In this document: positions 3,807-63,725 of the stretch, piece by piece
Position numbering within the stretch: the stretch's first letter is position 1
How the letters are laid out: each line of letters starts with the position of its first letter
NCBI GenBank assembly: GCA_950106755.1
Contig: OX467082.1
Span: 13,392,001-13,456,000 of the forward strand
Direction: 5' to 3'
Source of the DNA: Climacium dendroides
Taxonomy: Eukaryota; Streptophyta; Bryopsida; Hypnales; Climaciaceae
Length of the DNA stretch: 64,000 nucleotides
The notes under the pieces: model-generated
The model's input: only the letters and a program-made list of their open reading frames with translations
What the model was told of the DNA's origin: nothing
The model's database searches: none
Translations under genes and position numbers: made by a program

Positions 3807-4361
3807 TTAACCCCTAACTCAGTAAATCATAACTTCTTGGATTGATATGAAATTTTTACCACAAGAACTAGACTAGTATGCGCAACTTTTCCAACAAAAA
3901 TTATTGAAAACAAACCCTGTCTGAAGAAGTTATAAGCCGCCTAAGTTCACTGAATGCAAAAATGTCTGGATTTTCAACTTCGAATTGCTCCCAAGCATTC
4001 AAAACAACTTGGATTGATATGAAAATTTTATCACAATAAGTAAACTTCATGGGGAACAAAACCCAACAAATTTTATTGAAAACTAACATTTGATGAAAAA
4101 GATACAAGCCCCCAAAGTTGCAGCCATCTCATTGCAGTGTGGTGAACTCAAATTGAACCTGCGAACTTTGAATGACTTTCAAAAACTCATTACATCTTTG
4201 ATAGATCTTAAAATTTTACCACAAAAAATAGACTATTATGCACAACTTTCACAACAAGTTTTATTGAATTTGGACATTGGATGCAAAAGTTATAACACTT
4301 TGAAGTTGACTGCTAGATTGTGTGAAGACACTTTTGGTCCCCTTGGACGGTGAGGGGTTAA
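3807..4361. mobile_element. TTAA-flanked TIR element, 547 bp
   Basis: TTAA at 3807-3810 is followed by CCCCTAACTCAG. The far end is the inverse (CCCCTCACCGTCC read inward), followed by TTAA at 4358-4361. The inside holds three degenerate direct repeats marked by 'gatatgaaatttttaccaca' near 3844, 4015 and 4203. There is no transposase, so this would be a non-autonomous (MITE-like) element. Confidence 0.6.
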
Positions 4362-6869
4362 ACCAACAACAATACAACTACATCATACACTTTGTGAAAG
4401 GATCATACATATGGAGAATAATAATGTTCATAGATTCATGATCTCAATCATATTTGAACTATATTAACATGTAGTTACTATAAGAAAATTAGAGATCAAT
4501 GAAACCAATATTCAAAATAATATCATTTTTATAAAAGTCATCTAGATAACATAGTTGAACTTCATTTCACACACAGGTACTACAAACACTACACTTCACA
4601 TGCATTTACATGTGGTTATTGTGACAAAGGCAATGTATATGTGATTATTGTCACTTTGTGTGGACTTAGTACACAAACGTTAGGTGAACTTTTCATGAAA
4701 GCAAAATTACCAACTCTTTTGTTGCAATATACAACTTTTAGAAATTCATAGATAGAAATTGATAGTAAAAATTATCTAAGAAATAGACATACTAGAAATA
4801 GAATGATGTCTTCTAGTATGACCAAAAGAAGAGGTTAAAAAATAATATGTGTGTAATTTAAATTAATATATCAGTAACGTAAAAAAGTAGTGCATCATCA
4901 CAATGCGAAATGATGCACTCACAAATTCTAATGTAGAAGGGGAAAACAAGGTCGTGCATGAAATTTTTAGGTACACAATTTTCTTACAAATTTCTTAAAA
5001 TATTTTATAATTTTATAGAGAACTTTTAGAGCATTTTCAAAGTATTGTTTAGCATGTTGTTAGAGTATTTTTAGAGTGATTTCTTATAGCAATGACCAAA
5101 AAAAGAGGTTTAAAATAATATATATGTGGTCTAAATTAATGTTATATAAAAAAAGGTTCAATAATTTGTATATAATCTAAATTAATGTTCATGTAAAAAA
5201 TAAAGTATTGTTGTAGTTCAATTTTCACCTAATATGTGGTAGTTTATAAAATAATGACTTGAAAGTATAAAGTATAATTTCTTTGGACACCCAACTCCAA
5301 ATGTGAACCATTCACCAGACAAACAAAATTAATGATGGCAAATTCCTTCCACACCAAGGTGGACAATCCAATAGATAAAAGATTTTGTTCACTAATACTA
5401 AACACCCTAGTCTAAACTAGACCTTAGAAGAGTAGTAATTGAGCTTTAGTTTGGAGGGATGAGGGACGGCTTTCTATGACTATAGCTATCCATGGAGATG
5501 CATGCATTAGAGTTGGTGGGATCAAGGATTTTCATTTCAAGTATTTATTTTGGGTACACCAAAAAGGTTCATTGGATTGCATTTTTAATTAAATTGTCCA
5601 ATTTGGCATATATGTAGTTTCATGATAAAAAATAGATTTCAAATCTATCATACAATTGAATGATAGAAATTCAAATCAAAGTGTCTTATTTATTATTTTA
5701 TTGATTAAATAAATCGATGTGAGATGTTAAAAAATTAGTGTGGAACAATCTATTGTACCTACTTGGTGTGAATAGTGGAGAAAGCAATTTTTGTCCATTG
5801 ATGTGAATGAGACATGCGAAATGTAAATGAAATCCAATTGATTCATATCCAAAAGTGCAATATTGTCTTTGGATTTTGTAGGCATTTAGTTGTTTTAGCC
5901 ATTACAAAAGGGGATTATGTCATGAAATATTCTCTCAATAATTTTTTGGTATTTCTTTGGAACAAATTTTTTTTAAGAACTTTTGGGGATTTTATGAGAA
6001 ACACATAATTTCATTAAAGGGGCTTCTAAAGGGCTACAAGTTCTTAGGCTATTGGGAACTTGAGAACTATGCCACAACAGCTTGATGTAACTGAGAGACT
6101 GCTACATCAAAATATATATAATAATTTATTTTAATTTATTTTAAAATTATTATTTTTATTATTTAAATATTCTGATTATGACATATTCATTATAGTCAAA
6201 GGAAAAGGGTTGAAACAACCCTCCTAGCCCCCCAAAATTCCTCTAATGTTTTTGAATAAATACTTTGACCATAGTTTCTATTATTTAATTATAAAAATTT
6301 GTGTTGTCTTATTGGAAGTCAAAAGGAGGCTCAAGATTCATTTGGAATATATTTTTGAAAATCCTATGAAGAAAATAAGCATTTTCAAAGATTTGAAACA
6401 AGGTATATCTAAAATTATTATACTTATAATAGAAAGATCGTATTGTTTACAAATGATGTAAAAGAATCTCATTTAAAACTATACAAAAATTTCAACTTTT
6501 ATGCACATCCCTTCATCGTAGCCATATTTAATTGGAAGAGAAATATTTAGATTCAATGCAATACCTTGAAATGAAGACCTTAAATACATATTTGATTTAT
6601 TGCACATTCTAATGAAAATGCAACAATTTATGTGATTTGGACTTCAAGCACCATATACAAAATCTTTTCATTATTGATGTCACAAATCACCATACGACAA
6701 GGAGTTTGTCAATCTAGTATATATGGTATAAATTATATACAACAATAATAGTTGCTAATTACAATTTAGCATAAAGACTATTATTTTCTAAAATTATTTT
6801 ATTGGATCTCATTGACAACTAAAAGAGGATTCCAATGCACTTTTGCATACATTATTTGGACATAAATAG
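4362..6869. other. AT-rich spacer, no gene
   Basis: The sequence is strongly AT-rich with stops in all frames. I see no RNA gene and no clear repeat structure. Confidence 0.5.
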
Positions 6870-7080
6870 GGAATGAATAAATTATGAATTTTCATCTCTA
6901 GGTGCTCCCCCCCACTAAGCTCTTATAGACTCTCATGTTTTGATAATATACACTTCTTGTAGTATCAACATCTATGTTTTTGTGATACTTTCTAATCCAA
7001 ATGTAGGTGTAAATTACATTTTGGATAATGTTGATTATGGATGGATGTACTTTATATATTGACTTTACCACAATTTTAAA
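6870..7080. repeat. dispersed repeat shared with 14265-14480
   Basis: The order of phrases (aatgaataaattatgaat, then a gtgctcccc-like block, then tatcaacatctat, then ttttgtgatact, then aatgtaggtgtaa) is matched in the same orientation at 14265-14480. The two are diverged copies of one repeat. Confidence 0.55.
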
Positions 7081-7256
7081 CTCAAAATGAGTATTCCAAA
7101 AATCATGCCATTGCCTACAAAGTTCTTGTAAAATGCAAAGAAGAAACAATTATACAATAGTAGAACTATATTATGAGTGATAGTCCATGGTTCCATCTTT
7201 TATGGCTATTCTATCTTCTCAAAAGAAAATACCATACATTCAAAGAAGCTTCAATA

Positions 7257-7407
7257 CACTACTAGAAAATTTAGTTTTTTTTGTTGTTTTGGTTGCGTTG
7301 ATCCAGTCAAAATCTGACAGAAATCTGTTAAAATCAATAGATTTCTGTCAGATTTTGATCGGATCAATGCGACCAAAACAACAGAAAAACTAAATTTTCT
7401 AGTAGTG
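7257..7407. mobile_element. 151-bp fold-back MITE with CACTA-type ends
   Basis: It begins CACTACTAGAAAATTTAG and ends with the exact inverse. The two arms pair almost perfectly along their whole length (about 65 bp each) around a short AT loop. CACTA...TAGTG ends are the signature of the CACTA (En/Spm) superfamily. The flanking 3-mers are ATA and GTA, so the expected 3-bp target duplication is only 2/3 conserved. Confidence 0.85.
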
Positions 7408-7410
7408 GTA

Positions 7411-8953: not shown

Positions 8954-9879
8954 TTAATTCCTAAAGTCCCAAAGCCCCTATGGGGGACTCTTGGAATTTT
9001 GAGTAGGGTTGTGTGACCTCAATTTTTGACATGATTAAAATTTTTAAAAAAAAATAGGAAATCAGATAATTTTTAAGGCATATAATTTTTATTTCAATCA
9101 ATGCCTAGAAACAAAAGTTACGCCACCATGAGTCCAAAAAGCAACTTGAGGGGTAGCCAAAAAAAATCACAAAAAGTTAATTTTTTTTTAAATTAAATTT
9201 TTTTTCCTCAAAGACTATATTTTTGTTTACATTTGAAGTTTTGATTCATTCTATTTGGGCTAGTGATGAGAAAGTTATGGACAAATCTTGTTTTTTGGGC
9301 AATCTAAGCATCTTCTTGAAAAAATAGCTTACAAACTTCATTTTTGTATGCAATTTTAACAATTTTTCAAAAAAACATTGTTATTTAGGGTTAAATTTGT
9401 TTATTAGAAAATTCTCACCATTGGGATTATTGTGTTTCAATTCCATTTTAGAACTATCAATGGTTTAGTTATCTCTTGAATCTTAAAGCTACTTCTACTT
9501 AACAATTTTTTAATGAGTGAAAATTATGTTTTTTTTTTATTGATTCTTTTTTCGAGATTCTTAACTCAATTCTTCGACTTAAAAAATTAGAAAATCAAAA
9601 TCCATAGTGCAAAAATTCTAAATTAAGAAGATTCAAAGCCAAAAATCTAGCCAATCAAGGTGTAAGAAAAACTTGTTTTCTTCACTTTGACTGCAAATAT
9701 CTTGCAATCAACACGGTCAAAGTTTCTGAAATTTTTTCCATGCATTCTTATACTAGTGTAGTACAAGATTTTGAGGTTAGATATTAAAAAAAAAATTGAA
9801 GTTTTTCACTCTTTGCAACAGAAATGACAGTTTTGAGTAGGTTTTTATGGAAAAAAGGCCTTGGGACTTTAGGGGTTAA
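8954..9879 (+). mobile_element. TTAA-flanked TIR element, family C, about 918 bp
   Basis: The left end is TTAA (8954-8957) plus TTCCTAAAGTCCCAAAGCC. The right end is GGCCTTGGGACTTTAGGGG plus TTAA (9876-9879). The two termini pair over about 20 bp with three mismatches. The inside is non-coding and collinear with 26484-27385, and in part with 60.1-60.9 kb, which shows a dispersed family. Confidence 0.7.
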
Positions 9880-11640: not shown

Positions 11641-11734
11641 TGGTCTTGGAGGTAAGTGCGATATTTTGCAATATAACCTCTCAGCTTGGATGGCCGTAGT
11701 GTGAAGTGGTCCTAAACCTGAGAGCTCGTTGCCA

Positions 11735-12141
11735 TTAACCCTTAAACGCTCAGCAGAGCCAAAAATGGCCTACAATTTTTCATACAATACAGTATGCTTG
11801 GCCTTAATGGAACCCAATTTTCAGCTTTTTTGCTTTTCATTAATTGCACAATAAACTTACTATTATTTCTGCAATATGGTCTTAGTTGGACAATTGTGAA
11901 TGGTTGGCTCACTGGCTCATTCACTCATTTGTAACATGTGGTAGTTGTCAATCTTTTTCATTAATGTTGTTTTCTATTGGGATGCAAGCATAAGTACCAA
12001 ATTGAGGATACAAACAATTATCGATTGGTGGAAATTTTTGTAGTGTTAGGCATTCATGTTAACACTTTATTGCCATGCATGTTGTATTATACTTTGGTAT
12101 TTCATAAACCATAGGCCAACTCTCAAGCATTAAGGGGTTAA
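11735..12141. mobile_element. TTAA-flanked TIR element, about 399 bp
   Basis: TTAA at 11735-11738 is followed by CCCTTAAACGCTCAG. The right end reads inward CCCCTTAATGCTTGAG and is followed by TTAA at 12138-12141. Non-coding. Confidence 0.6.
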
Positions 12142-12375
12142 CCCTTAAATATCGAGGTGGACGTTTTGCGTCCGATGGATGACAAGGTATTCTCCTTGTG
12201 TATGATAGAAATGCAACTATTCATCCTCGGAATTAGGGGTGGAAAGGGAACCGAAATCTTCCACAGTACGTTTGACTCCCAATGATTATTTTTGGTTTTT
12301 TTAAACTAGATGATGTCACATAGGGTTCCCAAAGGGCTGATTTCCACGGTCACTAGCCCAATGTTCAAGGGTTAA
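12138..12375 (+). mobile_element. TTAA-flanked MITE, family B, 230 bp
   Basis: It shares the TTAA at 12138-12141 with the preceding element and ends at TTAA 12372-12375. The ends read inward CCCTTAAATATCGAGG and CCCTTGAACATTGGG. The inside ('caactattcatcct' block, then a 'gattt...ccacggtca' block) is repeated at 20041-20267 and in part at 41168-41365. Confidence 0.7.
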
Positions 12376-13404
12376 GGGAGGACATTATATCTGGCATACG
12401 AAGTGGGCCCAACAAGTTGGATTTACCCTAGAAGAAAATGTTTTATTTTTTGAAATTTTTCACACACGATAAAATTTGCAATTATTTGGATTCATATTGG
12501 CAATTAACGACTCCAAATTAGGTAAGAGAGGTTTGAAACATACCCTAGTTACGGTTCAAAATAAGGGGCTTTTTTTCACTTTTATCCCTGAAGAATCTAA
12601 AAAGTACCCTTCGAAGCCCACTTCATGGGCAATATTTAGTGTCTTGTGCCATTGAGGGTTTGAATGTCTAACTTTCGGAGCTCTAACTGGGCTCTTTTAC
12701 ATTGTAAGGTGCGTCAGGGCATTTGACCAATCTTCTAGCCTCCGGTCCATATAAACTAGGTGACTAGAGGCCTCTATTTCACATTAAGGAACAAAAGTGA
12801 AAGATGTGCGGGGCTTGGAGAAGGCCACACTTGCCTACTCAAAATTGAAGCAACTTAATGTTGTAGGTCCAATGTGGCTAATGCAAATATAATTGTTGAT
12901 TTTGATGCTTTGACAACCCTTCTAGTTGTTGGAGCTCCAATACACAAATGACAATTGGTTCTTAGGGCTAGTTGCCATTGGAGAATCGGACCTCCCAAAT
13001 TTTGAGCTCCATGTGCTTTCCATTGAGCTTTGGACTCTCCCCTCTAGTTGAACCTTTAGCTTCCAATCCATGCATTTAGAAATTGCAGGCCTTGAGGGTT
13101 TGGCCCTTCAATTGGAAGCATACAAATACAACTACAAAACAAAAATTTACAGCTATAGTTTGTGCACTTTCAAGGGGAAGGGCATAATAATGCTTAAAAA
13201 GGCATAGGATAATTGAAAAATATAATGATCTCATGGAAAACTCATGATTAGAAGTGAAATAATGATCCAAATTGAATGCTTGCTACTAGTGTATACATCA
13301 ATTTATATATTTTTAAAGATATTGTCACTAACTAAAATACACCAATCATTGTCACAAATTATAATTAAATAGAGTTCATATTATTAGACATAAATCATTT
13401 CAAC
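12376..13404. other. spacer, no gene
   Basis: Mixed composition with frequent stops in all frames. No RNA gene or clear repeat was seen. Confidence 0.4.
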
Positions 13405-14536
13405 TCCCAAAGGACCAAAACTACTTTTTTTGGCAACATAGCAATTTTGGGTAGCTCACTACAAATGGAATTTTCATTTATTTTTCTTTGAAATTTTCAC
13501 ACAACACAAGGACAAGATTTTTCTTTAAGACCCAAAAAATTTCAAAACTTTTGACTACATGGTTAAAAAGTTATCATACAATACGTGTTTTTTCCCTCAA
13601 CCAAGTAGTCCAGGCATATTAGAAAAATCACTTTTTTCAAAAACAAAAATGTGACATTGGTTTGCTAGATTTATATTTATGTGGAAAGCCTTGAATCATT
13701 CCATTTTGATCAATGAGATGAAAGTTATGAGTTTTTATTTATTTATAGGTTGTTATAGATTCTCTACTCTAAAATAAACTTTGAAGTCCTTTATCTTACT
13801 CAATTTTTAATATTTTTTGAAAAAAATAGAATCATAGGATGTAGATCGTTTATTACAACATTACAACCATTAGGAGTGGCATTTTTCAATTCTATAATCA
13901 AATTCTGAACAATTTAGTATTTTGAATTAATTTCTATTTTTTTCTACTTACTATTTTTTGGTATGTTGTACAATTCCAAATGATCTCAAATTTTTCAAGC
14001 ATGTATCCTACTTGCCTTGAAGAATAAATCTAAAGAAGTAACGCCATTTTTCACATTTTTTCATACAAATGTGACCTTGTAAAGTGCATTTGCCTTGTTT
14101 TTAGTAGGGTCAAAACAAGGTTTTTTGTCAATTAAAATGTTAATATTTTGCAATAAGCATGGTAGAAATTTCTGAAATTTTTTCCACATCTTTTCAAGCT
14201 AGCTTACTACAAAATCCAATAGTTACATGAGTCTAAAAATGTATTTTTTTTCTAAAATTTGGTACTTGTACAAGAAATGAATAAGTTGTGAATATGTTTT
14301 TGAAATATTGTCTCTTGGTGTCCCCAAAATCAACACTAGGTTCTCAAAAATTCTCGTATTTTGATTGTGTACAGTACCTCTTGTATAATCAATATCTATT
14401 TTTTGTGACACTATTGGGTACAAATATAGGTATTGCATTATAGACCCTCTTAATTATGGGTGTAGGTTGCATCAAATATACAACCAAAATACCACGCTGA
14501 GACCAAAGTTGAGTTTCCAAGTCCTTCGAGGATTAA
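13405..14536 (+). mobile_element. diverged family C element
   Basis: The left end TCCCAAAGGACCAAAAC follows a degenerate TCAA. The right end reads inward ATCCTCGAAGGACTTGG next to TTAA (14533-14536). The inside from about 13780 to 14240 is collinear with 57330-57790. The ends have decayed, so the boundaries are approximate. Confidence 0.45.
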
Positions 14537-14977: not shown

Positions 14978-15430
14978 TATTGCACTAACATAAATTCCAT
15001 AAACTAAATTAGTTCTGGGATCACTGCCCAATCATGAATGCGAAAAATCATTGCTAATCAAATGAACTGGTACAGTAACTGTTGGCCCTCATAACAGCAA
15101 AAGGCTGCGTTGGCGCTCTGCCCGCTCCCCAGAGAGATCTGAGCCGTCGGAGCAATCCACGGCGATCCGTCTCCCTCTGCCAGGCCTTTGTCTCCGGACG
15201 CTTCCAAACCCATCACCGTACCAACACAAAGCGCAACGGGCCCCGCACTCAAATTGCAGCGGCCAGACCCTCATCGCAATTCCGTGTTCCTCCCTGCTCG
15301 CAATTCTGTTGCGCGCTTGTTGTTCTGTCGCAATTGCTTCCGATTTCCCCTTCTCAGTATTCAAATCTGCTCACATTTCGCTTCAGGAGCCGTTTGGGGT
15401 GTTGGGTTTGGTCGAGGGGTTACGCAGGCG

Positions 15431-17143
15431 ATGGGGGCGTCGTCGGAGATTTGCGTGGTGACGGGTGGGCGAGGGTTCTTGGCCAAGTGCGTGGTGCAGA
15501 AATTGCTGGAGGATGGCCGCTTTGTGGTCCGCATCGTGGATCTGGCGCCCAGGTTGACGATGACGGATGAGGAGACGATGGGGGTTCTCGGGCAGGGGGT
15601 TCAAATGGAACGAGTTCAATACGTTTCCTGTGACATTCGCAACAAACAGCAGGTGATGGAGGCTATGCGAGGGGTTACAGTGGTGTTTCATATGGCCGCT
15701 CCCGACACTTCCATCAATAGCTTCAAATTGCATTTTGACGTCTCCGTCACGGGGACGCGGAATGTGATCGAGGCTTGTTTGGAATGCGGTGTACAGAAGC
15801 TAATTTACACTTCCTCTCCTAGCATTGTGTTCGACGGTGTGCATCCCCTTGTTAATGTGGACGAGTCGGCTCCGATCTGTGATAAGTTTAATGATTACTA
15901 CTCGGATGCCAAAGCGCATGGGGAGTCGCTGGTTTTGAGTGCTAATGGGAGGAGTTTAATGACATGTGCGATACGCCCGAGTGGGATCTTTGGACCCGGC
16001 GATAGACTGACTGTCCCTGCGTTCGCGAAGTCTGCGAGAGCTGGGAAACTGAAGTTCGTTCTCGGTGATGGGAAGAATATGTTCGATTGGACGTTTGTGG
16101 AAAATGTCGCGCATGCGCATTTGTGTGCGGAAAAGGCTTTGACATTCGGGGATGGAGGGGTTGCTGGGAAAGCTTTCTTTATTACGAACCAGGAGCCGAT
16201 TCCGTTTTGGGATTTCCTAACGAGAATTATCACTGGGCTTGGATACCCTAAACCGAAGTTCAACGTTCCTGCGAAGCTTGTGCTGACAGTTGCCGAAGCA
16301 TATGATAGCGTGGCGAAGATGTTGGCCCCACTCGGTGTCAAGCCGGCGGTCAATTTCAATCCTGTGCGTTTGAGGCTGGTTACTGTTACGAGAACGTTCA
16401 ACTGCAATAGAGCCAAGGAGCTTTTAGGGTACACTCCCATTGTGTCTTTAGAGGAAGGGATTCGGAGAACGATTGCAGCATATCCTGAGTTTCGAGCCGA
16501 TGCACCGGATCCCGAGATTGCGAATCGAGAAACCAAACTGTCGTCGAAGATAAATACGGCGCTCGGTGGTGGTCCCGTGGCGGATGTGCTTTTGTGGAAA
16601 GACAGTAAGAGAAGCGTTGCGATCTTCATTGGCCTTTTAAGCATACTGTACTTCTTCTACAGATCGGGGGCCACTCTGGCTTCTGCATTGAGCTATAACC
16701 TCTGCGTGGTGCTGATTGCTATCTTTACCCTCAACTTCTTGCCCGACCCTCTGTTTTCAATTTCGTTACCGAAGATTCCCCCGTCATTGTTCGAGATATC
16801 CGATGACTCTGCAATCAAAGTGGCCCATGAAGTTCGATCACTCTGGAACTCTGGCTGCTGTCTTCTGGAGAGAATTGTTGTTCAAAGAGAATGGCCTCTG
16901 TTTTTCGAGGTGATGGTAGTTCTGCGTATCCTGAAGTTTTTCGGGAGATTTTCCTTCCAGAGTTTACTCTTCATGAGTGTGTTCGCAGCGTTCACTGCAC
17001 CCTACATGTATGAGCAGAACGAGGACGAGTTTGACAAGCTGTGCACTCTGGTATTTGAAACCATTGACCATTACTACGGAATTGTCGCCAGCAAATTGCC
17101 GGAGAATCTACGAGGGCGGTTGGAGATGAAGAAGGTGCAGTAG
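15431..17143 (+). CDS. 3BETAHSD/D: 3β-hydroxysteroid dehydrogenase/C4-decarboxylase with reticulon domain
   Basis: This 570-residue protein oxidatively decarboxylates 4-carboxy-3β-hydroxysterols with NAD+ in ER sterol C-4 demethylation (family knowledge). The Rossmann glycine motif TGGRGFLA is at 11-18, an early sheet with acidic residue at VDL 36-38, and the catalytic pair Y157-x3-K161 in YYSDAK. A substrate-domain segment WTFVENVAHAH is at 220-230. A C-terminal reticulon domain starts about 383 (ADVLLWKD) with hydrophobic hairpins at 396-437 and 489-525, which should anchor it in the ER. The length matches the longer Arabidopsis members (about 560). I chose the ATG at 15431 because the SDR fold begins there; the frame is open upstream to 15188 but that part is low-complexity leader. 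The whole gene is a single exon, which is unusual. GC content is well above the surroundings. Confidence 0.95.
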   Translation: MGASSEICVVTGGRGFLAKCVVQKLLEDGRFVVRIVDLAPRLTMTDEETMGVLGQGVQMERVQYVSCDIRNKQQVMEAMRGVTVVFHMAAPDTSINSFKLHFDVSVTGTRNVIEACLECGVQKLIYTSSPSIVFDGVHPLVNVDESAPICDKFNDYYSDAKAHGESLVLSANGRSLMTCAIRPSGIFGPGDRLTVPAFAKSARAGKLKFVLGDGKNMFDWTFVENVAHAHLCAEKALTFGDGGVAGKAFFITNQEPIPFWDFLTRIITGLGYPKPKFNVPAKLVLTVAEAYDSVAKMLAPLGVKPAVNFNPVRLRLVTVTRTFNCNRAKELLGYTPIVSLEEGIRRTIAAYPEFRADAPDPEIANRETKLSSKINTALGGGPVADVLLWKDSKRSVAIFIGLLSILYFFYRSGATLASALSYNLCVVLIAIFTLNFLPDPLFSISLPKIPPSLFEISDDSAIKVAHEVRSLWNSGCCLLERIVVQREWPLFFEVMVVLRILKFFGRFSFQSLLFMSVFAAFTAPYMYEQNEDEFDKLCTLVFETIDHYYGIVASKLPENLRGRLEMKKVQ

Positions 17144-18395: not shown

Positions 18396-18591
18396 ATACC
18401 TTTCTCGGCCTTTTGGCTAAGATCAAGTGTAGTATCTGTTCTTATCAGTTTAATATCTGATACGGGGGTCATCGATCCCCATGATATTAATCTAATTTTT
18501 CTCGGGTGCGGGTCCATCCGGCAGCTTGCTGCCCGGTCCCGCGCGCGTCGCCTTGGTATTGCACTACTTCCTTGGCTGGCGCAGCCCTCTC
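18396..18591 (+). ncRNA. U2: U2 spliceosomal snRNA
   Basis: The 5' end ATACCTTTCTCGGCCTTTTG is the plant form of U2. It is followed by the conserved 5' domain with the branch-point recognition sequence GTAGTA at 18429-18434 and the TATCAGTTTAATATCTGATA stem IIa region. Stem IIb is formed by GGGGGTCATCGATCCCC. The Sm-type site AATTTTT lies at 18494-18500. A strong GC hairpin (CCGGCAGCTTGCTGCCCGG, about 18517-18535) follows. The 3' end is set from the usual plant length of about 196 nt and is approximate. The gene carries its own promoter elements, so it is probably functional and not a reverse-transcribed copy. Confidence 0.95.
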
Positions 18592-20040: not shown

Positions 20041-20267
20041 TTAAACGTGAAGGCGAGTACTTAGTGTTTGATGAATGATAGAGAATCATTTAGTGTAGGA
20101 CAGAAGTACAACTATTCATCCTCGAAGTTTTGTATGGAAAAGAGGAGATCTTCTACAGTAATTAATTTGACTACTAATGAGTGTTTTGGGATTTTTTTAG
20201 AACAATGATTTCCATGGTATCAAAATGGATGATTTTCACAATCATCAGTCCATCATTTAAGGGTTGA
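20041..20267 (+). mobile_element. family B MITE, copy 2
   Basis: Starts at TTAA 20041-20044 and ends with CATTTAAGGG followed by TTGA (20264-20267), a decayed TTAA. The inside is collinear with 12142-12371 (shared 'caactattcatcctcg'). Confidence 0.6.
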
Positions 20268-20578: not shown

Positions 20579-21290
20579 GTGTCCTCTAGTCACGTGCTTG
20601 GTACCGCCGGAAAGCCCTCGGCAAGGAAGGGTGCACTGGCTTGGTTTGGTGGCCTTCGGACGTATGGTGTGGAAGTTGTGCATTTTCGAGTTATTTTTGG
20701 TTCTGAAAAATTAGAAAATTACTTTTACTTATATTTTGGTCATGATCTTGATACCGTCGGAAAGCCCTCGGCAAGGAGGGGTGCACCGGCTTGGTTTCGT
20801 GGCGTTTCGACTGACGGTGTGAAAGTTATTGAATTTTGAAGTATTTTTATGAACTAAAAAATTAGAAAATTACTTTTACTTTTGTTTAGACTATGGCAAC
20901 GGCACAAGACACACGTACTTGGTACTGTCGGAAAGCCCTTAGCAAGGAGGGGTGCACAGGCTTGGTTTTGTGGCGTTTGGAAGTACGGTGTGAAAGTTAT
21001 GCACTTTTGAGTTATTTTTTATTCTAAAAAATTAAAAATTACTTTTTCTTATATTTTGGTTGCAATCTTGGTACTACTAGAAAGCCCTTAGTGAGGAGGG
21101 GTGCACTGGCTTGGTTTCGTGGTGTTTTGACTCAAAGTGAGAAAATTATTGAATTTTGAAGTATTTTCATGAACTAAAAAATTAGAGAATTACTTTTTCT
21201 TATATTTTGGTCACAATTTTGGGACCATTGGGAAGCTCGTGGCGAGGAAGGGTGCACAGGCTTGGTTTCGTGGTATTCCGACTCGATATT
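20579..21290. repeat. 150-170 bp tandem repeat, five copies
   Basis: The block 'GGAAAGCCCTCGGCAAGGA' recurs at about 20609, 20759, 20929, 21079 and 21231 with graded divergence. Each unit continues with 'GGCTTGGTTTCGTGG' and an AT-rich tail 'aaattagaaaattactttt'. A single unit with the same upstream flank is at about 62055-62250. Confidence 0.9.
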
Positions 21291-26135: not shown

Positions 26136-26479
26136 CAAATGTAAGGTATGGACTTAGGATTTAACTTTGTAGAAATATGTAGAAACTTCAAGGTATATAG
26201 AGTGTTCTTTGCCCTAGGGTGAAGGTTTAGGGTTTGAGTTTTGGACTAAGCTTTAGATGTATTGTTTTATAATGAGCATCTAGGGTGGACAACTTTGATC
26301 GCAACATGAAGAATTTATCCAAATTGTAGTAGCTTTTGGCCTTGCTTTCAAATTATCTATGCATTGTCTCCTATTAGATTTTAGTAGTGAAGATTTAGAA
26401 CGACTCTATGAAATTTTGTGCCATGGTTGGTAGGTCCGCGATGTTTCTATAGCGAAGGGAGAAGATTGGTGCAACTTAT
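26136..26479. other. spacer, no gene
   Basis: Stops in all frames; nothing recognised. Confidence 0.4.
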
Positions 26480-27389
26480 TATCTCCTAAAGGACCATTAT
26501 CCCTTTGGGGGACAAATGGGATTTTGGCTAGGTACCTACAGTCCCAATTTTTGTCTTGATTTTTTGAATTTTTTTTTTAAGATAGAAAAATTGATTAATT
26601 TCATGGGAATATAATTTTTTTTCAATAGGTGTCTAAGAACAAAAGTTATGTCCAAATAAGCTAAAAACATGAGAGAGGGGGCAACAAAAAAAATTCAAAA
26701 ATTTGAATTAAACTTTTTTTCTCTCTCATAGATTATATTTTTGTCTACATGTAAAGATTTGATTCATCCCATTTGGATTTGTTATGAGAAAGTTATAAAC
26801 AATCTTGTTTTGGGGGCAAATAGAGCATCTTCTTGAAAAAATAACTTGTAGGATTCATTTTTGAATGCAATTATTACAGTTTTTGAAGGAAAAAAATTTC
26901 ACATGTTTAAGTTTGCTTGCTAGAACAATGTCAACATTGGGATTAGTGCATTTTAATTCCATCCTAGAGATATTAATAATTTAGATCTTCCTTTTATCTT
27001 GTACCTACATCTATTGAACAATTTTTTAAAGAATAAAAATAAATTTTTTTCCCTAGATCCTCAACTCAATTCTCCACCATGAATACATAAAGCTCAAAAT
27101 TCTGTAGTGCCAAAAATTAAAGTTAAGAAGGTTCAAAGTCAAATAACCTAGCCTTGCAATGTATTAAAAACTTGTTTTTTCCCTTTAAAGTTTAAACGTA
27201 GATATCTTGCAATTTGAGTTGTCAGAATTTCTAAAACAAATTGTACGCATTCTCATACTAGTTAGGTGTAACATCCTATGGGTAGATGTGCAAAAGAAAC
27301 AATTTTCAAATTTTTTTATTCTTTGCTATAGAAATGGCAGTTTTGAGTGCTTTTTCACAAAAAAGGCCTTGGCCCAGTTTAGGGGTTAT
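26480..27389 (+). mobile_element. family C element with TTAT at both ends, 902 bp
   Basis: The left end is TTAT (26480-26483) plus CTCCTAAAGGACCA. The right end is CCCAGTTTAGGGG plus TTAT (27386-27389). The inside is collinear with 8958-9875. The identical non-palindromic TTAT on both sides would fit a 4-bp target duplication. Confidence 0.65.
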
Positions 27390-32736: not shown

Positions 32737-33204
32737 TCATTCCATAGATGAAACTTCAACATTGCAGATTGGGCAAGTTTTTTTACATTGCAACCACTGT
32801 CTAATGCACTCAAAATGATATTCATGGTTACAAGGCAACTTGCACATTGACTTTCCTTCTTCAAATTCAAGTTGACAGACAATGCATTGTTCTTGATCAA
32901 AAGTGTTGTCTTGGGAATTGGATGTATATGCAAATCGTGGAAGTGCATCAATGAATTGAAGATCAAGACCTTCGCTCTCGGTCTCCATTATTTCTTCAAG
33001 TTCTGGCAAGTCTTCATAAAAACTGTTGTCCAAATCAACATCGTCCACATGATTGTGTCTATTATGTAGGCTATACTGGTAGTGAAGCCAATACATGAAG
33101 GCACGCCAACGTTCATCATGAATATGATAGTTGTCACTATTTGCACCATGCATATAGTTATCAGGATTGGTAAGTTCATTGATAAGTTCATCAATCATAT
33201 CCAT
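32737..33204 (-). CDS. RING-H2 E3 ubiquitin ligase, BIG BROTHER-like
   Basis: A 155-residue protein with a C-terminal RING-H2 finger: C107-x2-C110-x14-C125-x-H127-x2-H130-x2-C133-x10-C144-x2-C147, with the conserved Trp at 137. Upstream, the segment 61-93 (FYEDLPELEEIMETESEGL, then a LPRFAY motif) resembles the region before the RING in the BIG BROTHER family, which ubiquitinates growth regulators to limit organ size. It is shorter than that family's usual 240 or so residues and is a single exon with AT-rich codons. It may be a compact paralogue, the 3' part of a longer gene or an intact retrocopy. The RING assignment is firm; the subfamily is inference. Confidence 0.85.
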   Translation of the reverse strand: MDMIDELINELTNPDNYMHGANSDNYHIHDERWRAFMYWLHYQYSLHNRHNHVDDVDLDNSFYEDLPELEEIMETESEGLDLQFIDALPRFAYTSNSQDNTFDQEQCIVCQLEFEEGKSMCKLPCNHEYHFECIRQWLQCKKTCPICNVEVSSME

Positions 33205-33892
33205 CTCTAATTACTACCACTTCTTAGCTAAATTCTTTGTTTTTAAATCAAGACTATGAAATTATTATTGAAAATTTTTGACTACTCAAGTATGTGACAA
33301 TAATATTTTATGTTAAAAGTCTACAAATATAAAATCATAATAACTTTCATAAACCAAATGAATAACAAATGTAAGAGCAAGATATTCTTTTTATATCTAC
33401 CTTCAATTAAAAAAAAACTTATCAAAGTAAAAGATGGATCATATTACATTAAAGTAAAAGAAAAGTACAAATAAAGTGAATCATATTGAAGCATATATTA
33501 AAGTAAATACAAAACATAATGAGACTAAAGTAGTTTCAAATTTCAAATTTTTGTTTATAAGAAAAGTGATTTTTTTAATCTACCTAGACTATCTAATGTA
33601 AGATAAAATTACATATCATACAACTTTTTAAGTATGTAGTCAAAAGTTATGAAAATTGTAAAATATATCTACTTATACATATGCTCAAGATTCACATGCT
33701 CATGCTCTCACATTAGCATCATTGGGCTTTCAAGAGGCTCATATGAAAGCAACTTTTTGTAATGTTAATATCTCTTACAATGTATTTTTGAAGTAATAAC
33801 TTGCTTTCCAAGTAAGATTGTGCTCAGACTTTATTCTTTATAAAAATTGGTACTATACAATACTTGTACAATAATATTTCAATCTTGCTAAT
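33205..33892. other. upstream region of the RING gene
   Basis: AT-rich. No convincing TATA or further exon was seen. Confidence 0.35.
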
Positions 33893-35417
33893 TTAACCCC
33901 TAAGGTTCCTTGATTAAATTCTCACCAAAAATGTTCCAAAACTGCCATTTCTAATACATGTACCAAATTTTTGAAAAATATCATTTTTGGACACATGTAA
34001 TAGTAAGATTTTGTAGTATTATGGTTTGAGAATATGTAGAATTCTTTTTGGAAATTTCCACTATACAAATTGCAAGATATTAGCATTTGAAGTAGCAAAA
34101 ATCTTTTTTTTGGCCTTGCAAAGAAACGGGCAGCTACACTTCACAAGGTCATATCATTACGAAAAAATGTCCAAAATGGTTGTACTTCTTTGGATTAATT
34201 CTTCAAGGCAAGTTGGCTACATGCTTAAAAATTTTCAGATCATTTAGAATTGTATAACATTTAGGAAAGAAATAATATATAGAAAGAAGTAGAAAATGAT
34301 TCAAAATATAAATTTGTGACAATTTATTTATGGAATTGAAAACTTCCAATTTCAATGGCTGTAATGTTGTCCTCCCTCCATCCTGAAATAAATTTAGGAT
34401 TTCCAAATATACTTGTCTCAAATTAAATTCAAAATTGGTTCTCCACAACTTGTTGAACAACAACTAAAGTTAGTTTGAGCACCCTAAAGCAAACGAATTT
34501 GCAAATACCATGCTCAAAAGACTAAATAGCAATTTGATCCCTACAAATGGAATCAAAATGCAACCTCTAACCAACCAAAGGTAAAAAATTCAACCCACAA
34601 CTATACAAAAATTGCTATTGACAAATCTCTTGTTGAGACATTTATAGACTTGAATCACAAGACATTGTTAGAATTGAATAAAGAAGATGTCAATGGACAT
34701 CACTACACCAATGTTGCTCAGAAAATAATCAAAATCAATACTTCTAGAAGCAATTCCAAAAAGGGCAAAAATTTGTCAATTTTGTTGCTTGTTTTCAACA
34801 TGTACCAATTCATTCTTGACTTCCATTCTTTCATGCCTTGTGGGGTTTAGTAAGAGCTACATTAACTACACAATCCTTTGAATATAGGAACTATTCACAC
34901 GCTAATCTAGCCATTTCTAGGAAATCCCAAATTTATTTTGAGATGGAGGGAGTAATAAACAATCTACATTCTATGATTTTATTTTTTTCCAAAAATATTG
35001 AAAATTTGAGTTAAATAAAGGACTTCAAAGTTTACTTTAGAATAGAAAATCCTTAATTGCTTGCAAACTAAAATTCCTCATAACTTTTGACTCATTAATT
35101 ATAATGAAATGATTCAAAGCTTTCCATGTATATATAAATCTAATGAACCAATTTCAAATTTTTATTTATGAAAAAAATGATTTTTTTGATTTGCCCAAGC
35201 TCAAGTCCAAGCTGCCCAAGTTTAGAAACAAACTACAAATCATGCAATAACTTTTTAACCATTAAGTCAAAAGTTATGAAAATTGTTGGGCCTCAGCTAT
35301 TCTTCATCCACATGTTGTGTGAAAATTTCAAAGAAAACAAACAAAATCTCCACTCACGTACACGTGCTTCAAAAAGTTATGTTGCCAAATACACAAGGTT
35401 GGTCCTTTAGGGGTTAA
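33893..35417 (-). mobile_element. TTAA-flanked family C element, 1517 bp
   Basis: TTAA (33893-33896) is followed by CCCCTAAGGTTCC. The right end reads inward CCCCTAAAGGACCAACC next to TTAA (35414-35417). The inside near 33930-34000 matches, in reverse complement, the 14190-14280 and 61830-61910 blocks, so this copy is in the opposite orientation. A Stowaway-like element is nested in it. Confidence 0.65.
34372..34952. mobile_element. Stowaway-like MITE nested in the TTAA element
   Basis: The left end is CTCCCTCCATCCTGAAATAA. The right end is its inverse (TTATTTTGAGATGGAGGGAG) followed by TA. CTCCCTCC ends with a TA target are the Stowaway (Tc1/mariner) signature. At 581 bp it is long for the group. 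The TA on the left has decayed to TC. Confidence 0.8.
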
Positions 35418-41167: not shown

Positions 41168-41365
41168 TTAACACTTAAACTTTAAGGAGGATGTTTGGTG
41201 TTCCATGGATGATAGAGAATCTTTTTGTATAAGACAGAAGTGCAACTATTCATCCTTAAAATGCTGTGTGTGAAAAGGGGAGATTTTTTAAACTACTGTG
41301 ACTATCAATGAGTGATTTTGAATTTTTTTGACCAATGATTCCTACCATATCAAATAGATGATGTC
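41168..41365 (+). mobile_element. family B MITE, copy 3, right end missing
   Basis: Starts at TTAA 41168-41171 and is collinear with 20041-20230 ('ggatgatagagaatc', 'gcaactattcatcct'). The right TIR is absent. Confidence 0.55.
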
Positions 41366-53670: not shown

Positions 53671-53679
53671 TTTTAAAGG

Positions 53680-55691: not shown

Positions 55692-58600
55692 TTAACCTCT
55701 AAAGGACCATAAGACCACTAGGTGACTTTTACAACTACATTTGTAAAAAATTTGAAATTCAAACTTCACTAACAATTTGTGAACAACAAATAAATACTAG
55801 ATGATTTTTCTACCAAATTTGTAGGTACAATTTGATCAAGAATTGATCAAGTGCATGATTGTTGGTGAATTTTTTTGAGAATGGAGAAGGCACTTTGGAT
55901 CATCACACCACATTTTTTTCTTCCACACCTCAAAATGATTTGAAAAAAAATACACATCAATATCATGATGATATATCCCTATGGGGAAAAAAATGAAAAT
56001 TTTTGGAGCACCTGCATGCATATTGGGAGGATAAATGAGCTTCATGACTCCAATGAAGATTGTTTTTTATATTGCCAAAAAATATGAAATAAAGATCACT
56101 GCAATGTACCAATAAGGTGTTATGAACTTAAATGGGTTTTGATGTAAACCCCAATGCTCATTTTATGATATAAATATACAAATATTGAGTATTTTTTATT
56201 TTATTTTACAAAATGAAGTAGAGATCTTGGACTTTTTTTTAAATTTCTAATCTAAAATGAATGCATGATACACATCTAAGCTTGTTTAGGTTCAAACACC
56301 TAATTGGATATACCAACCTTGTGAATATTTATAGAGGTGGGATTCACCTATACTAAATTAGATGAAGTACACCAATTTGCAATAATATGTTATATTACAA
56401 CGTATAGACGAAATGAGAATATATTTGCAAAAAATATGATTATGTATTTATTTTTGGAAATATAGAGGCTTTGAAATACAATAGTTGATATCCAATAAAA
56501 AAAACAAGTGTTCCCAATGACTTGTCCACAATGACTTATCCACAATGACTATATCATAACAATGATTGCAAAATAGACAAGAAATGACTACTATAGTCAT
56601 TGTGAACAAGCAATGACTACTACAATCATTGTAGACAAGTCATTTATACTTTTTTTTCTTTTTTAGTGGCTAATGGTCTTAAAATTCCTCCAACTAAAAT
56701 TCCATGAAGTTGGAATTCATTCCTAATGGTTTTATAAGACTCCTACTCATATGTTTGTGTACACGTGCTTAGAATTTTTTCGACTATTTTTGTTTGTTTT
56801 TCCTATCCCTTACACAGATGAGGGAAAAATTTAAACATTTCTTGGGTTATTCCCCTTTATGAATTACAAAACATCTTAGCAAGTATATTACTAATTTTAG
56901 GTTGACATAGAATTAATTCTTGAGATTACTATTGGTGAAAGCAAGTTATAAAATAGGCATACAAATATCTAGATTTGGACTTCAAACAAACAAAATAGAC
57001 TCCACTAGAACAAAGATATAAGGCACACGTTAAATCCTACACCCTAAACAAAATAGACCCCATTAGAAGCAAGATATAAGACAAACATTATATAGACCTT
57101 GACAAATCATGCTTAAGAAAGGAAAATCATGCAAATGGCTCAAAGATCAATATGATGTATTGTACAAGCATGCCCTAATTGTTGGCCAAATTAACATTTT
57201 AATTACTACTATGTATGGCCAAATTTTAGATTTTGTACCACTTAGAAGCTAAGAAGTGAAAGGAAAAACACAAGATGATACAAAAGGTAAGAGTACAATA
57301 AATAATAAATTTATGGAATCTTTACTCTAAGATAATTTTTGAAGTCCACTATTGAATTCAGTTTTTAATATTCATGGAAAAAAATAAAAATATTGGGTGT
57401 ATATTGTTCATATAACATTACAACCATTATGATTGGCATTTTTCAATTCCATAAAAAAATTGTTAACAATTTAGTGTTTGGAATCACTCTCTACTTCTTT
57501 CTACTTACTATTTTTCCCTATATGTTGTACAATTCCAAATGTTCTAAAAATTTGAAAGCATGTAACCAGATTGCCTTGAAGAATGAATCAAAAGAATTAC
57601 AAACATTTTGGACATTTTCTTACAATGATCTAACCTTGTGAAGTACCACTGCCCAGGTTTTTGCAAGGTCAAAAGAGGATTTTTGTCACTTCAAATACTA
57701 ATGTCTTGCAATCTACAGGGTGGAAATTTCTAAAAAAGTTTTCACATCAAAGTACTCCAAGATCTTGTAGTTACATGTATTCAAAAATTGTTTTTTTTTG
57801 GTACTTGTAGGATAATTTTATGAATGAGTGGTTTAAAAGTGGCCTTCGTGGCTTCACTATAAGTCACTAAAATAGAAGGCTATTCTTTTTTATAACAACT
57901 ACATTAGAAATGAATAGGAAAAATTTCCAACTGAAGGGCAACCCACCTCAATCTTATAAAATATAATATAAGAGAAAAGAAAATAATGATAATGATAATT
58001 ACTTATAAAAAAAACATCCCCAAAATTTGACCTTCATTTTAACTACTAAAAATTTCCTAATTCTATATTTAAAAAATGTTCTTATAATGTAGAAAGCATT
58101 TCACTCAAACAAAACCTTTAGATCATTCATAACAAAATCACTAGACAACATTTAAATATATCCTTATTGTCAAAAAAAGTCCATATTTAATATTTTGTTC
58201 AGTTGGAACAAGTCCATATACTTCACTTTAAAAGTCCTATACTCCTATAAAAAATTGAAAGTTCTTAAACAAACTACATAGATGTCTTCATAATCAAGTT
58301 GTTAATATTTTGGACAAAAAAATTGTGATCTAGAGCCTTTCTAATGCTAACATTTTTTGAAAGCATCCTTGTGACCAATCTATTGAGACACTCATTAATT
58401 AATACAACTACCTTGTAAAAACAATTGCCATTTTTTAGTACATTGTCCAAAATTGAATATGATTTTTTTTAAAATTAATCATAAAAAGTGTATTATATAT
58501 TACTATAAAAATGTGTTGAAAAATTTTCAGCCCATGTGACTAGTTGGATTAAAAGATTATAACATTCAGAGTGAAATTTTTTTGCTCTTGATGAATTTTA

Positions 58601-59241
58601 TTCTCTCAACCATTGAGTTCTAAATCTTATTAGGTATACTTATGCAAAATTTTAGTAGCAAATATGGAGTTTAGCATACTCTAAATCACCCTACAATGCA
58701 AAGAGGTAATTTTTTGATGATTTTTTTATTTGTGCAATGGAGAATTTTTTATTTGAAATTCAAATGGTGAAAAATTAGAAGCAAAAATTTGGATTACATG
58801 GAAAAAGTTTCAAGAACTTTAACTTCACAAATTGTAAGATATTAGCTTGAAGTTAGAAGAAAATGTTTTTTCTTGAAACCACCTCAATATAGGTAACAAA
58901 GTTTGACTCCTCTTAGAACATGATTTGAAAACTAAATTTTTGGGGGAAGGGAGAGAATTGTATACCATATTTTATTAGTTACATACATGCCAAATTTCAA
59001 AAGTCAATGAGGGTTTTAGCAAAAGATGCTCCAAAGATGCCTAAATTGCCCAAATCTTTTTTAATAGCATAACTTTTAATCTGGAAACTCAATCAAAAGA
59101 TATATATTATTTCAATGAGGCAGTACATGTTCACATCTTGTGTCAAAAATTTTGTGAATATCTTACCAAAATTGACTTTGTAGAAACCTTTTGGAAATTT
59201 CTTGTGTCCATTGAATGAACACTTGGTCCTTTAGAGGTTAA
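55692..59241 (+). mobile_element. long TTAA-flanked TIR interval, 3.5 kb
   Basis: The left end is TTAA (55692-55695) plus CCTCTAAAGGACCA. The right end is the exact inverse, next to TTAA (59238-59241): 18 paired bases without mismatch. The inside at 57330-57790 is collinear with 13780-14240. I see no transposase frame; the longest ATG frame is 82 codons. The two ends may instead belong to separate copies. Confidence 0.5.
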
Positions 59242-60100
59242 TCAACCTTTTCATAGTTAGACATTGTATAGTGAATGAAATAGAGTTAAATTTTTATAAG
59301 CATGGCTTAGAGTAAACCGGCCATTCCATCTACACGCATCCAAGAACCACACAACAACCATTGCCAATTATTGCACAATAACCATACAATTCAACTATCA
59401 ATTCAATTGTCATGGGAACAAAATTTTGTATCATTGTCTAATGACCACACATTGTGCAGTGAAGGGCCGCAAGGAATTTTTTATTAGATTTCAAGAGCAT
59501 TGCCTTTAAATTGCAATAAAATTTGTAGGAAAAAATCTTTTGCATTTTGTTTTTTAAGGTGAATCTTAACATGACATTTAATAATTATGTCAATTTTCAA
59601 AACATTCAAGTCTTTATTTTTATGTGGAGAGGATTTGAGTTTTATCTTTGCAATAATTGGCAAGTTTACAATGTGTTCAAAAACTTCCAAATATTTTTTT
59701 AAAATCATAAACTTTATAAACTCTAATATATGTTTAATTGTAATCTACTCTTATGGTAGAAATTCAAATTTTGTTGACATGTTTTTTTAATTGGTATTCA
59801 GCTTTTACATTTAGGAAAAAATATGATTATTTCAAGTATCTACTAAAACTTACTAAAATGTATGTTTTATAGGAAATGCATTTTTTTGACGATGCTTTGA
59901 GGTATGGTATTTTACTTTCATTTGTTTCCAAAGTAAAACATAAACTTGGATGATTTTGAAGCTAAAAGGGATAATCTTGTTCAATTTGTTTTAATTTCAA
60001 AAGTCTCAAAGTCCTAGAATTTTTTCCTTAGGATTTTAGATAGATTCCTATAATGTCAAAGTTTACTATAATTACTTGAAACATTCTTTTAAAGCAAGGG
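59242..60100. other. AT-rich spacer, no gene
   Basis: Stops in all frames; nothing recognised. Confidence 0.4.
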
Positions 60101-60129
60101 AATGTACTAGGTTTGTGTGAGTTCAATAT

Positions 60130-60906
60130 TTATTTCAATTGGTGTAGGGAAAAAAGTTATACTTTCCTAATTTTAAAGTTCTCAAGTTTGGGCAATAAAA
60201 ATAGAAAGCCCCAAATTTATTGCTTTTATTTCTTTTCTTCTAGAATATATTTATTTCTACATAGAAAAAAATTGATCCATTTCATTTGAATTATTTAGTA
60301 ATGTGAAAGTTATGAAGAATTGTTTTTTGAGCAATCAAGGTATCTTCATGAAAAAGTTACATATGGAATTTAATTCTAAACACAATTTTTATAATTTTTC
60401 AAAATAAAAATGTCCATAGATTGTAGGTTACTTGCTTCAACAATCTTGCCATTAGTATTGTCTTTCATTTTCAAAACTATTGACAATTTAACTTTCCTTT
60501 CATCTTATACTTATTTTTACATAATAATTTTTTCACAATTGAAAATTATTAAATATAAATTTGGATTTTCTCTTGTAGATTTTAGATTCAATTTTGTACC
60601 ATGAAGATTTAAACATCAAAGTTCTTTTATTGCAAAAAACTCAAATTAAAGGGATTCAAAGTCCAAAATCCTAGGAAAGAAAGGTGTAAAAAAATCTTCT
60701 CTTTTTGCTTTGAACACTTATATCTTAAAATCTACATAGTGAAAGTGTTAAGAAAAAAATTCCACACATTTTCATACAAGTCTAATGCAAGTACCTCCAA
60801 TAAAATAAGAAAAAAAGTTTTTTTTCCCGTTCTAATTCTTTGCATTAGAAATGGCACTTTTGAAGTCGTATATGGTAAAACATAGTCATGAATTATTAAG
60901 AGTTAA
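60130..60906 (+). mobile_element. family C element, left end unclear
   Basis: Collinear with 9200-9880 and 26700-27389 ('gatccatttcatttgaatt', 'gtgaaagttatgaag', 'agaaatggcacttttga'). It ends at TTAA 60903-60906. The left TIR is not recognisable. Confidence 0.5.
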
Positions 60907-61304
60907 TAAAAGGAAAACAACTCTAACCATCATTAATGTTGGCATCACTTGAGATTTTGTTCATTTCAGGTCCCACCTTAGCTCCCTAAAGTTTTTGTTT
61001 GTTTTACATTTGTAAATGTCATGTACTTGCATTTTGAGTATGGATTTTCTTTTCAATTTTGCAAGGCAATGTAATATCCAATCTTAACTTGAGTGTTGAA
61101 GCAATTGACATTCATATATGCATATGTTTGTATGCTCATAAGTTATAAAGAAAGCTCAAGTACCAAAGGTGATATATTTAAACAAGCTCATGTTGTATAA
61201 TAATTCTATTTGATTGGTGGCTTATCTAAAATTATAAGTTTATTTCTAAAGCCCTAAACTGTTCATTATGAATAGAATTTTTTTTAAACAAAACCTAGTG
61301 ATGA

Positions 61305-61814: not shown

Positions 61815-61829
61815 CCTTCAGTGTACTAC

Positions 61830-61937
61830 AAGATCCTATAGTTACATGTGACCAAATTTTTTTTCTTCTAAAATTTGGTACTTGTACTAGAAATGGCATT
61901 TTTGGACTATTTTTGTAGAAGCATAGTCAAGGGTTAA
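61830..61937 (+). repeat. right-end fragment of family C
   Basis: Matches the 14190-14280 block ('aaaatttggtacttgtac-agaaatg') and ends CATAGTCAAGGG plus TTAA (61934-61937). Confidence 0.5.
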
Positions 61938-62054
61938 CAGTCCTAGTCTAACACAACCAACAATCTATGGTTACCCATTTTGTTTTGTTTCATTTGGCAT
62001 CTTGGAGCCAAAATCTAATAACGTGGCACAACCATTCATTCATTAAGATAGGTT

Positions 62055-62250
62055 GTTTTGTTTTGTTTTGTTTGTTACGTTGAAATCTCCTAAACCGTGC
62101 GTCTCCTAGTCACGTTCTTGGTACCATTGGAAAGCTATTGCAAGGAGAGGTGCATGGGCTTTGTTTTGTGGTGTTCTAACTCATGATGTGTAAGTTACTG
62201 ATTTTTGAAGCTTTGGAAGCTTTTAGGAATCAGAAAATTACTTTTACTTT
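62055..62250 (+). repeat. single dispersed unit of the 20.6-21.3 kb tandem repeat
   Basis: 'CTAGTCACGT-CTTGGTACC', 'GGAAAGC' and 'AAAATTACTTTTACTT' occur in the same order as at 20579-20730, and the upstream flank (GTTTTGTTTGT-ACGTTGA) is also shared. Confidence 0.8.
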
Positions 62251-63456
62251 TATTTCAATTGTAGCAATGATACACAACATACTAGTAGTAGTTTAAATCT
62301 CAAGGTACCATCTTCCATTTTTTGCATGATGTATTGTTACACTGTACCAAAAAAACTCGGTGATTACTACAATAGACTTTACGTACACAAGAAGTACGCA
62401 AATAAAGAACTCCAATTAAAAATGCAAGTAGGGAATTTGCATTATGAGAGGTTTGATTGTAGATTACAAAAAAATATTTGTTCAAAGTATACAATGTTCA
62501 TCCACATGCGGCGCCAAGACTACGAATGACATTATTTCAGGTGAAATTTGCCACTCTCACCCATTTCAAAATGAAGAATATGATGCAAAATATTCTAACA
62601 TTAGTTCGAACATCTGACTCAGCAAAAACTTCCTACAAAGTGCATGGTTTCATGGTTCGGGCTGTTTATCAGTTGTTGAAAAGGGGGAAAAAAATATATA
62701 TTTTCGCTGGGGACACGGTCCTCTGGTCCTTTGTACTGTTCCCTCTTATCAATGGAAATTGTCCGTGTGCTTAAAAAAACTGAAAAAAGAACACTTCCTA
62801 CAAATAAAATCCCTGGCTGAGTGGTCCTGACCCTGGGCAGTTTTTTGGGGATCCACCAACCCATCAGCGAACTTATGGCATTCCAGGTTGACAGAGCTGG
62901 TTTCAATTTTTAAAAGTTAAATTTTTTTTTTAAAGTTTAAAATTTTTAAAAAAAATTTAAAATTTTATTTTGGAAGCTGATTGATTTCATTTTCAATACG
63001 TGCTTGGGTGTGACCATCCATGGAATTTTTTTTAATATCCTTGGATGTTGTATGTGCACAAGACTTCAAGCTTATCTGCACTCATGCTCCAAACAGGTCT
63101 CCGAAGGTCCGCATGAGAAAAAGGTCCCCCACTCAGACCCATAGAATGCAGAATTTGAGCGGGCTCCATAAAAACAAGCCAAGCCAGGGTCTGGCCCAGG
63201 TAAGGGCGTGCGCAACCACTTTAGAGCATAGATTCGGCGAATTTCCGACATTATTTGGTCTTATGAGAGGTTGATTTCCTGCTTTAGAGCATTGTGAGTT
63301 GTTGGGGAAGGCGCAACATGGTTTTGGGGAGTTGGGAGTGTAGACAAGGGTGGGCGAGATTCATTGTAGACCTTGAAAACAAATCCATCGAAGGCCCTCT
63401 ATGTCACAAATTGAAGGCCACTTTTCTTGCAATTGAGTATATGGGCCTAGGTGCTC
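62251..63456. other. spacer, no assignable gene
   Basis: Patches of balanced composition at 62500-62900 and 63050-63290 contain short frames on both strands and a donor-like CCCAG/GTAAGG (about 63196). I recognise no family and call no gene. Confidence 0.3.
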
Positions 63457-63725
63457 TTAACCCCTTGAACGTCACAATGGATGTTTTCTGGATGTTCAGA
63501 GTTCTAGATTTTTCCAAGACAATGTTCATCAATTATTATAATCCCTAAATCTAGACGGTGGGTTCTCTCAAAATTTGAATAATCACATTCATCAAGTAGT
63601 TAACATGCGAATTCAATAGTGAAGTCCTCATTGAATCATGAAATTTCTCATTATTCCGTTTTTCCTTGCACATTGCTAAGAAGCTTCTGAATTTTGACGT
63701 TTTGGTTGTGACATTTAGGGGTTAA
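63457..63725. mobile_element. TTAA-flanked MITE, 261 bp
   Basis: TTAA (63457-63460) plus CCCCTTGAACGTCACAA. The right end reads inward CCCCTAAATGTCACAA next to TTAA (63722-63725). 13 of 16 terminal bases pair. Another TIR-like CCCCTCAAATGG starts immediately after the right TTAA. Confidence 0.75.

Follow-up and report, generated by a model that had tools for sequence, protein, structure and literature searches.

Non-autonomous TTAA-flanked elements of probable piggyBac type in the genome of the moss Climacium dendroides

TTAA-flanked elements of the window and their families

The stretch analysed here, called the window below, is a 64-kb part (contig OX467082.1, positions 13392001–13456000) of the 412.6-Mb, 123-contig assembly of the moss Climacium dendroides. 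It carries eight intervals with short terminal inverted repeats, which the sequence-only reading had singled out as flanked by TTAA or TTAT and ended by CCYC-type repeats. These intervals are real. An identical 4-mer stands on both sides of all eight. It is TTAA in seven intervals; the other has TTAT and begins at 26479, not 26480. All termini are CCCCTAAA-like, and the first eight inner bases of the left and right ends are equal at six to eight positions in each interval. Within the window, TTAA followed by a match to CCCCTAAA with two mismatches or fewer occurs at 24 sites; 1000 dinucleotide shuffles average 5.5 such sites and never exceed 15. Convergent terminus pairs in the same shuffles have a mean of 0.38 and a maximum of three; greedy counting in the window gives eight, a set of pairs that differs from the eight intervals. 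Sites that match TTAACCCCTAAA with no more than one mismatch number 16 (mean 0.55, maximum three, 20 shuffles). A chance origin of the termini is excluded. The bases directly outside the TTAA are almost unconserved over the 16 interval ends. Elements may also adjoin: one TTAA (12138–12141) is common to two neighbours, and further termini begin at the shared TTAA of 63722–63725 and of 20041–20044.

Five of the eight intervals were searched in the whole assembly, and 8954–9879, 12138–12375 and 33893–35417 were compared within the window, where relatives of all three were found. Each genome search scores 40 candidates, so that copy counts are lower bounds. Four of the five searched intervals belong to dispersed families. 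The 555-bp element at 3807–4361 (plus strand, TTAA/TTAA) matches at least 39 other places at 95–96% identity (2651 initial candidates), and these matches start at query base 12 or 13; its left end is a terminus of about 11 bp fused to internal sequence. The full form of this family measures 980–981 bp in 17 copies with recognised ends, and the flanks vary among copies. Seven copies of the longer form have TTAA on both sides, six of them 97.9–99.3% identical to the seventh. The window copy, 3807–4361, is a deletion derivative of this non-autonomous family of about 981 bp. The 407-bp non-autonomous element at 11735–12141 (plus strand, TTAA/TTAA) matches at least six other places over bases 1–407, three at 94–95% and three at 73–75%. 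The 269-bp non-autonomous element at 63457–63725 (plus strand, TTAA/TTAA), at whose right-hand TTAA (63722) a second terminus begins, matches at least 22 over bases 1–269, at 72–86%.

Family A comprises three plus-strand copies in the window: 8954–9879 (TTAA/TTAA), 26479–27389 (TTAT/TTAT) and 59991–60906 (TTAA/TTAA). They can be aligned along their lengths, with 69% identity between 8954–9879 and 26484–27388 over nearly the full length, and similarity stops at TTAA. Most of the 40 scored genome matches of 26479–27389, out of 8744 candidates, are near full length at 78–95% identity. Clean family A copies read TTAACCCCTAAAGGACCA, like 55692–59241. The copy at 59991–60906 is one of two with equal end 4-mers that had not been listed before, and its termini are decayed (three of eight inner bases equal). 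The other, at 13400–14333 on the minus strand, belongs to family B and has TCAA/TCAA where its relative has TTAA; one terminus is decayed (one of eight inner bases equal). That relative is 33893–35417 (plus strand, TTAA/TTAA), and the two pair up once a nested miniature inverted-repeat transposable element (MITE) at 34372–34952 is removed. The nested MITE has CTCCCTCC...GGAGGGAG inverted ends, is absent from 13400–14333 and lies outside the TTAA group; we take it to be Stowaway-like from its CTCCCTCC ends. Family C is represented by 12138–12375 (plus strand, TTAA/TTAA, with one TTAA common to its neighbour) and by decayed relatives at 41168 and 20041–20267.

The largest interval, 55692–59241, spans 3550 bp and carries TTAACCTCTAAAGGACCA at both ends, with matching termini of 18 bp. 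Six-frame translation gave no Pfam domain, and query pieces 1620–2118, 2118–2704 and 3019–3247 are separately repeated in the genome. This interval could represent either a single element into which others have inserted or a composite. The first of these pieces (57311–57809) is a widespread repeat with recurrent bounds that is also found inside family B elements.

Target duplication and empty sites

Insertion duplicates a 4-bp target, TTAA in nearly every case. Elsewhere in the genome, 34 copies have unrelated flanks and recognised ends on both sides; 33 are TTAA/TTAA and one is TTAG/TTAG. Among 20 fetched copies of the 981-bp family, both ends were recognised in 17, all with TTAA/TTAA; the left end of the remaining three (L017, L024 and L027) did not fit the search word. 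Ten copies of family A were fetched, three of which share the flanks of the window copy and represent one event (TTAT/TTAT). The seven independent copies comprise six TTAA/TTAA and one TTAG/TTAG. All fetched copies of the 269-bp family (6/6) and of the 407-bp family (4/4) have TTAA/TTAA and unrelated flanks. The TTAT, TTAG and TCAA duplications are duplications of whole 4-mers, which argues against a 2-bp target.

Empty sites agree with this result. Of the 2592 bases of 18 constructs of joined flanks, 1848 were searched, comprising 12 complete constructs and part of one more. Among the 40 matches listed, four of the 12 complete constructs have unfilled paralogous sites, and 35 of these matches belong to a single site within a high-copy repeat. 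All 16 aligned empty loci, from four insertions, carry a single TTAA without a gap and are 97.9–100% identical to the joined flanks; a precise excision and a site that was never filled would look alike here. The preference of the sequence-only reading for a 4-bp TTAA target over a 2-bp TA target is thus upheld by both the non-TTAA sites, duplicated as entire 4-mers, and the empty sites, and the latter speak for piggyBac. The insertion L029 lies within a short tandem repeat; judged by eye, the corresponding position of the next unit reads TTAG and resembles an unfilled site.

Transposase loci and the affiliation of the families

A DDD transposase of the DDE_Tnp_1_7 type, flanked by the same repeats, had been proposed as the enzyme to look for. 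The corresponding profile, PF13843, has 119 matches in the genome (best E value 6.1e-79) and none in 14 control genomes. The match is free of stops in ten of the 30 loci returned. Nine of the 30 were extended to find element ends: L060, L061 and L062 were picked by open frame alone, L063 (= L056) by an open frame plus one fitting end already visible, and L033, L042, L046, L048 and L057 with one fitting end already visible. Each of the nine is enclosed by TTAA and a pair of similar ends 5.0–7.2 kb apart. Both ends are CCCC or CCCT in eight of nine, and in eight of nine the end pair scores above the best TTAA pair of each of 100 shuffles. The element at L062 is 5801 bp long, with 16 of 16 terminal bases equal (CCCCTAAATGACCCTG) and an open reading frame (ORF) of 872 amino acids; that at L063 is 4999 bp long and has an ORF of 653 amino acids. 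The four ORFs that were read span 552–1054 amino acids, some with long N-terminal parts. Terminal repeats of CC[C/T]T type occur in the window elements and in the transposase elements, with exceptions (the fourth base is C or A in many, and one L042 end is TCCT), and ACCGCCCAAGG is common to the termini of the 981-bp family and L063.

By sequence, the L063 protein matches piggyBac (6x67, E value 6e-28) and piggyBat (9c0f, 3.8e-26). Its residues D318, D397, D508 and D511, counted from the alignment, stand opposite piggyBac D268, D346, D447 and D450, which we take to be the catalytic aspartates, and these four columns are nearly invariant in a 22-row alignment. Its predicted model has a mean predicted local distance difference test (pLDDT) score of 75.7; the top fold match is 6x67_C (E value 1.9e-24, 24% identity in the fold alignment), followed by piggyBat. 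The L063 transposase thus keeps the aspartates and fold of piggyBac, and the other copies are assigned by profile. The L061, L062 and L063 ORFs have, by eye, Cys-rich C-terminal tails, for which no such Pfam domain was reported. Some of the transposases may possess an N-terminal Tudor-like barrel, a faint indication at present.

The transposases are diverse. Apart from near-identical pairs (L038/L040, 99.8%; L048/L049, 99.7%), the ten open frames are 30–62% identical to each other. A comparison of L063 with 5.8 billion proteins returned 35 relatives, three at 45–54% identity and the rest at no more than 34%. All relatives with an organism name, three in number, are cnidarian, and no named land-plant protein is among the 35, which does not mean that other plants lack such proteins. 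A 37-row tree, built from eight moss proteins plus 29 of the 35 relatives, groups the moss proteins with the three relatives at 45–54% at 100/100 support. Because the relatives were retrieved through shared words from a single moss query, the tree does not settle the origin of the group. The earlier proposal of several non-autonomous families holds. Its addition that one transposase serves them all is not shown, and the genome contains several transposase lineages that have diverged from one another.

The intervals of the window are almost certainly non-autonomous members, mostly MITEs, of several piggyBac-type families in the moss nuclear genome, with a matching-ended DDD transposase encoded elsewhere. 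Their kinship with piggyBac follows from the TTAA duplication, the like-ended transposase loci and the match of the transposase to T. ni piggyBac. In the proposed mechanism, a DDE_Tnp_1_7 transposase coded by the 5–7-kb elements would recognise the CCCC/CCCT-type terminal repeats, excise the element, presumably by cut-and-paste chemistry, and insert it at TTAA, leaving TTAA on both sides. A particular transposase would be linked to a particular window family by ends and target. The identities among copies (97.9–99.3%) and within the transposase pairs (99.7–99.8%) suggest recent activity. A broader picture is tentative and rather doubtful: an old, diversified moss lineage, apart from the animal ones, in which an N-terminal Tudor/chromobarrel-like domain reads histone marks and steers insertion, and which has moved recently and seeded thousands of MITEs.

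Several results weigh against the piggyBac assignment. Eight of the 12 complete constructs have no empty site among the 40 matches listed. The selection of six of the nine extended loci rested on a CC- or TCCT-type end that was visible beforehand on one side; the right end of L042 starts with TCCT, not CC; the CC-type pair of L061 is second-best to an unrelated pair that scores higher, and its shuffles are not beaten; L033, L042, L046 and L057 carry stops within the match. No long subterminal sequence common to a transposase element and a window family is shown, and 55692–59241 has no second full-length copy among the scored genome matches. These last two points would also fit separate systems moving separate families, with piggyBac at work only where the termini are near those of L062/L063 and with the 3.5-kb interval a composite. 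Such a mixture is improbable but deserves consideration; TTAA and CCCC-like ends are common to all of the elements, and four families hold TTAA at their exact bounds genome-wide.

Other superfamilies provide poorer explanations. Relatives of Tc1/mariner (TA) or PIF/Harbinger (TTA/TAA) with a strong TTAA preference would draw on the fact that TTAA includes TA and TAA, and the window does hold a Stowaway-like MITE. A 2-bp target would let the outer two bases differ, yet entire 4-mers are equal, and the transposases between such ends are DDE_Tnp_1_7 (mariner, Harbinger and hAT transposases were not searched for), which makes this origin very unlikely. The Tc1/mariner TA duplication was rejected on the empty sites with one TTAA and the non-TTAA sites doubled as 4-mers. 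Nor is a different TTAA-duplicating superfamily, Kolobok or Sola3, to be expected with any appreciable probability, although Sola3 targets TTAA. Kolobok likewise duplicates TTAA, according to the part of PMC9587614 cited here, and Sola1 is recorded for Physcomitrella in a table of PMC9033089. The terminus rule given for Kolobok in the same part of PMC9587614 is 5'-RR and YY-3', and the moss ends are CC and GG, on which ground this candidate was set aside. The enclosed transposases are piggyBac by profile, and one also by sequence and fold; no search was made for Sola or Kolobok transposases.

The piggyBac-type elements of the moss resemble the known superfamily (T. ni piggyBac; piggyBat) in their TTAA duplication and CC[C/T]T-type ends, and in the DDE_Tnp_1_7 domain, catalytic aspartates and fold of the transposase; a Cys-rich tail, judged by eye, may be a further likeness. 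They differ in the moss host, the element length of 5.0–7.2 kb, the ORFs of 552–1054 amino acids and the possible Tudor-like barrel. The TTAA and CC[C/T]T hallmark and piggyBac MITEs are described in the portion of PMC2872659 used here. The coral CMITEs of that portion are likewise small and TTAA-flanked, with CC[C/T]T ends and interiors mostly unlike the autonomous element. They occur in tandem arrays, as two or three moss neighbours share one TTAA, but belong to a coral host, are about 100 bp long and are conserved internally; the moss families run from 238 to about 981 bp with varied interiors.

Plants have been mentioned before in this context. Within the extracts cited, PMC8086355 and PMC10813416 name plants among the hosts of piggyBac-like elements, PMC10004981 places PiggyBac among angiosperm MITE superfamilies, a fern repeat table (PMC6890710) gives PiggyBac 1230, and a grass table (PMC8319324) has one 75-bp PiggyBac entry; a grapevine survey (PMC2528002) is also among the print sources. 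The superfamily label of the angiosperm and fern extracts (PMC10004981, PMC6890710) is the same as here, and it stands there as a category name or count, without transposase, ends or empty sites. The listings searched, which cover open-licence PubMed Central (PMC) papers, contain nothing recognised as a description of such elements from mosses. The remark of the sequence-only reading that well-described piggyBac-type families are not known from land plants is fair but slightly too strong, as papers mention plant piggyBac-like elements or MITEs. Plant piggyBac is already in print; here it is documented with transposase-coding elements, empty sites and multi-copy passengers. A plant branch of the superfamily is thereby open to direct study in a land plant. 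The open transposase frames, with two near-identical pairs among them, are natural candidates for a plant-adapted insertion tool, and the N-terminal barrel, if it is true that it reads chromatin, would be a test case for target choice by DNA transposons.

Host assignment and other features of the window

To judge from protein similarity, the window is moss DNA. A gene resembling 3-beta-hydroxysteroid dehydrogenase/decarboxylase at about 15143–17143 shows, among the 120 of 590 matches listed, 84–85% identity to two further proteins, 76–77% to Ceratodon and Physcomitrium proteins, 46% to a Sphagnum protein and at most 51% to named non-moss plants. A full-length Rfam match identifies a U2 spliceosomal RNA at 18396–18589. 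The hairpin at 7257–7407, with perfect 23-nt arms starting CACTACTAGAAA, has what we take to be a CACTA-like look. Local direct repeat arrays occupy 530–1708, 2189–2654 and 20589–21284. On the minus strand at 32740–33210, an ORF has, by eye, a RING-finger-like Cys pattern.

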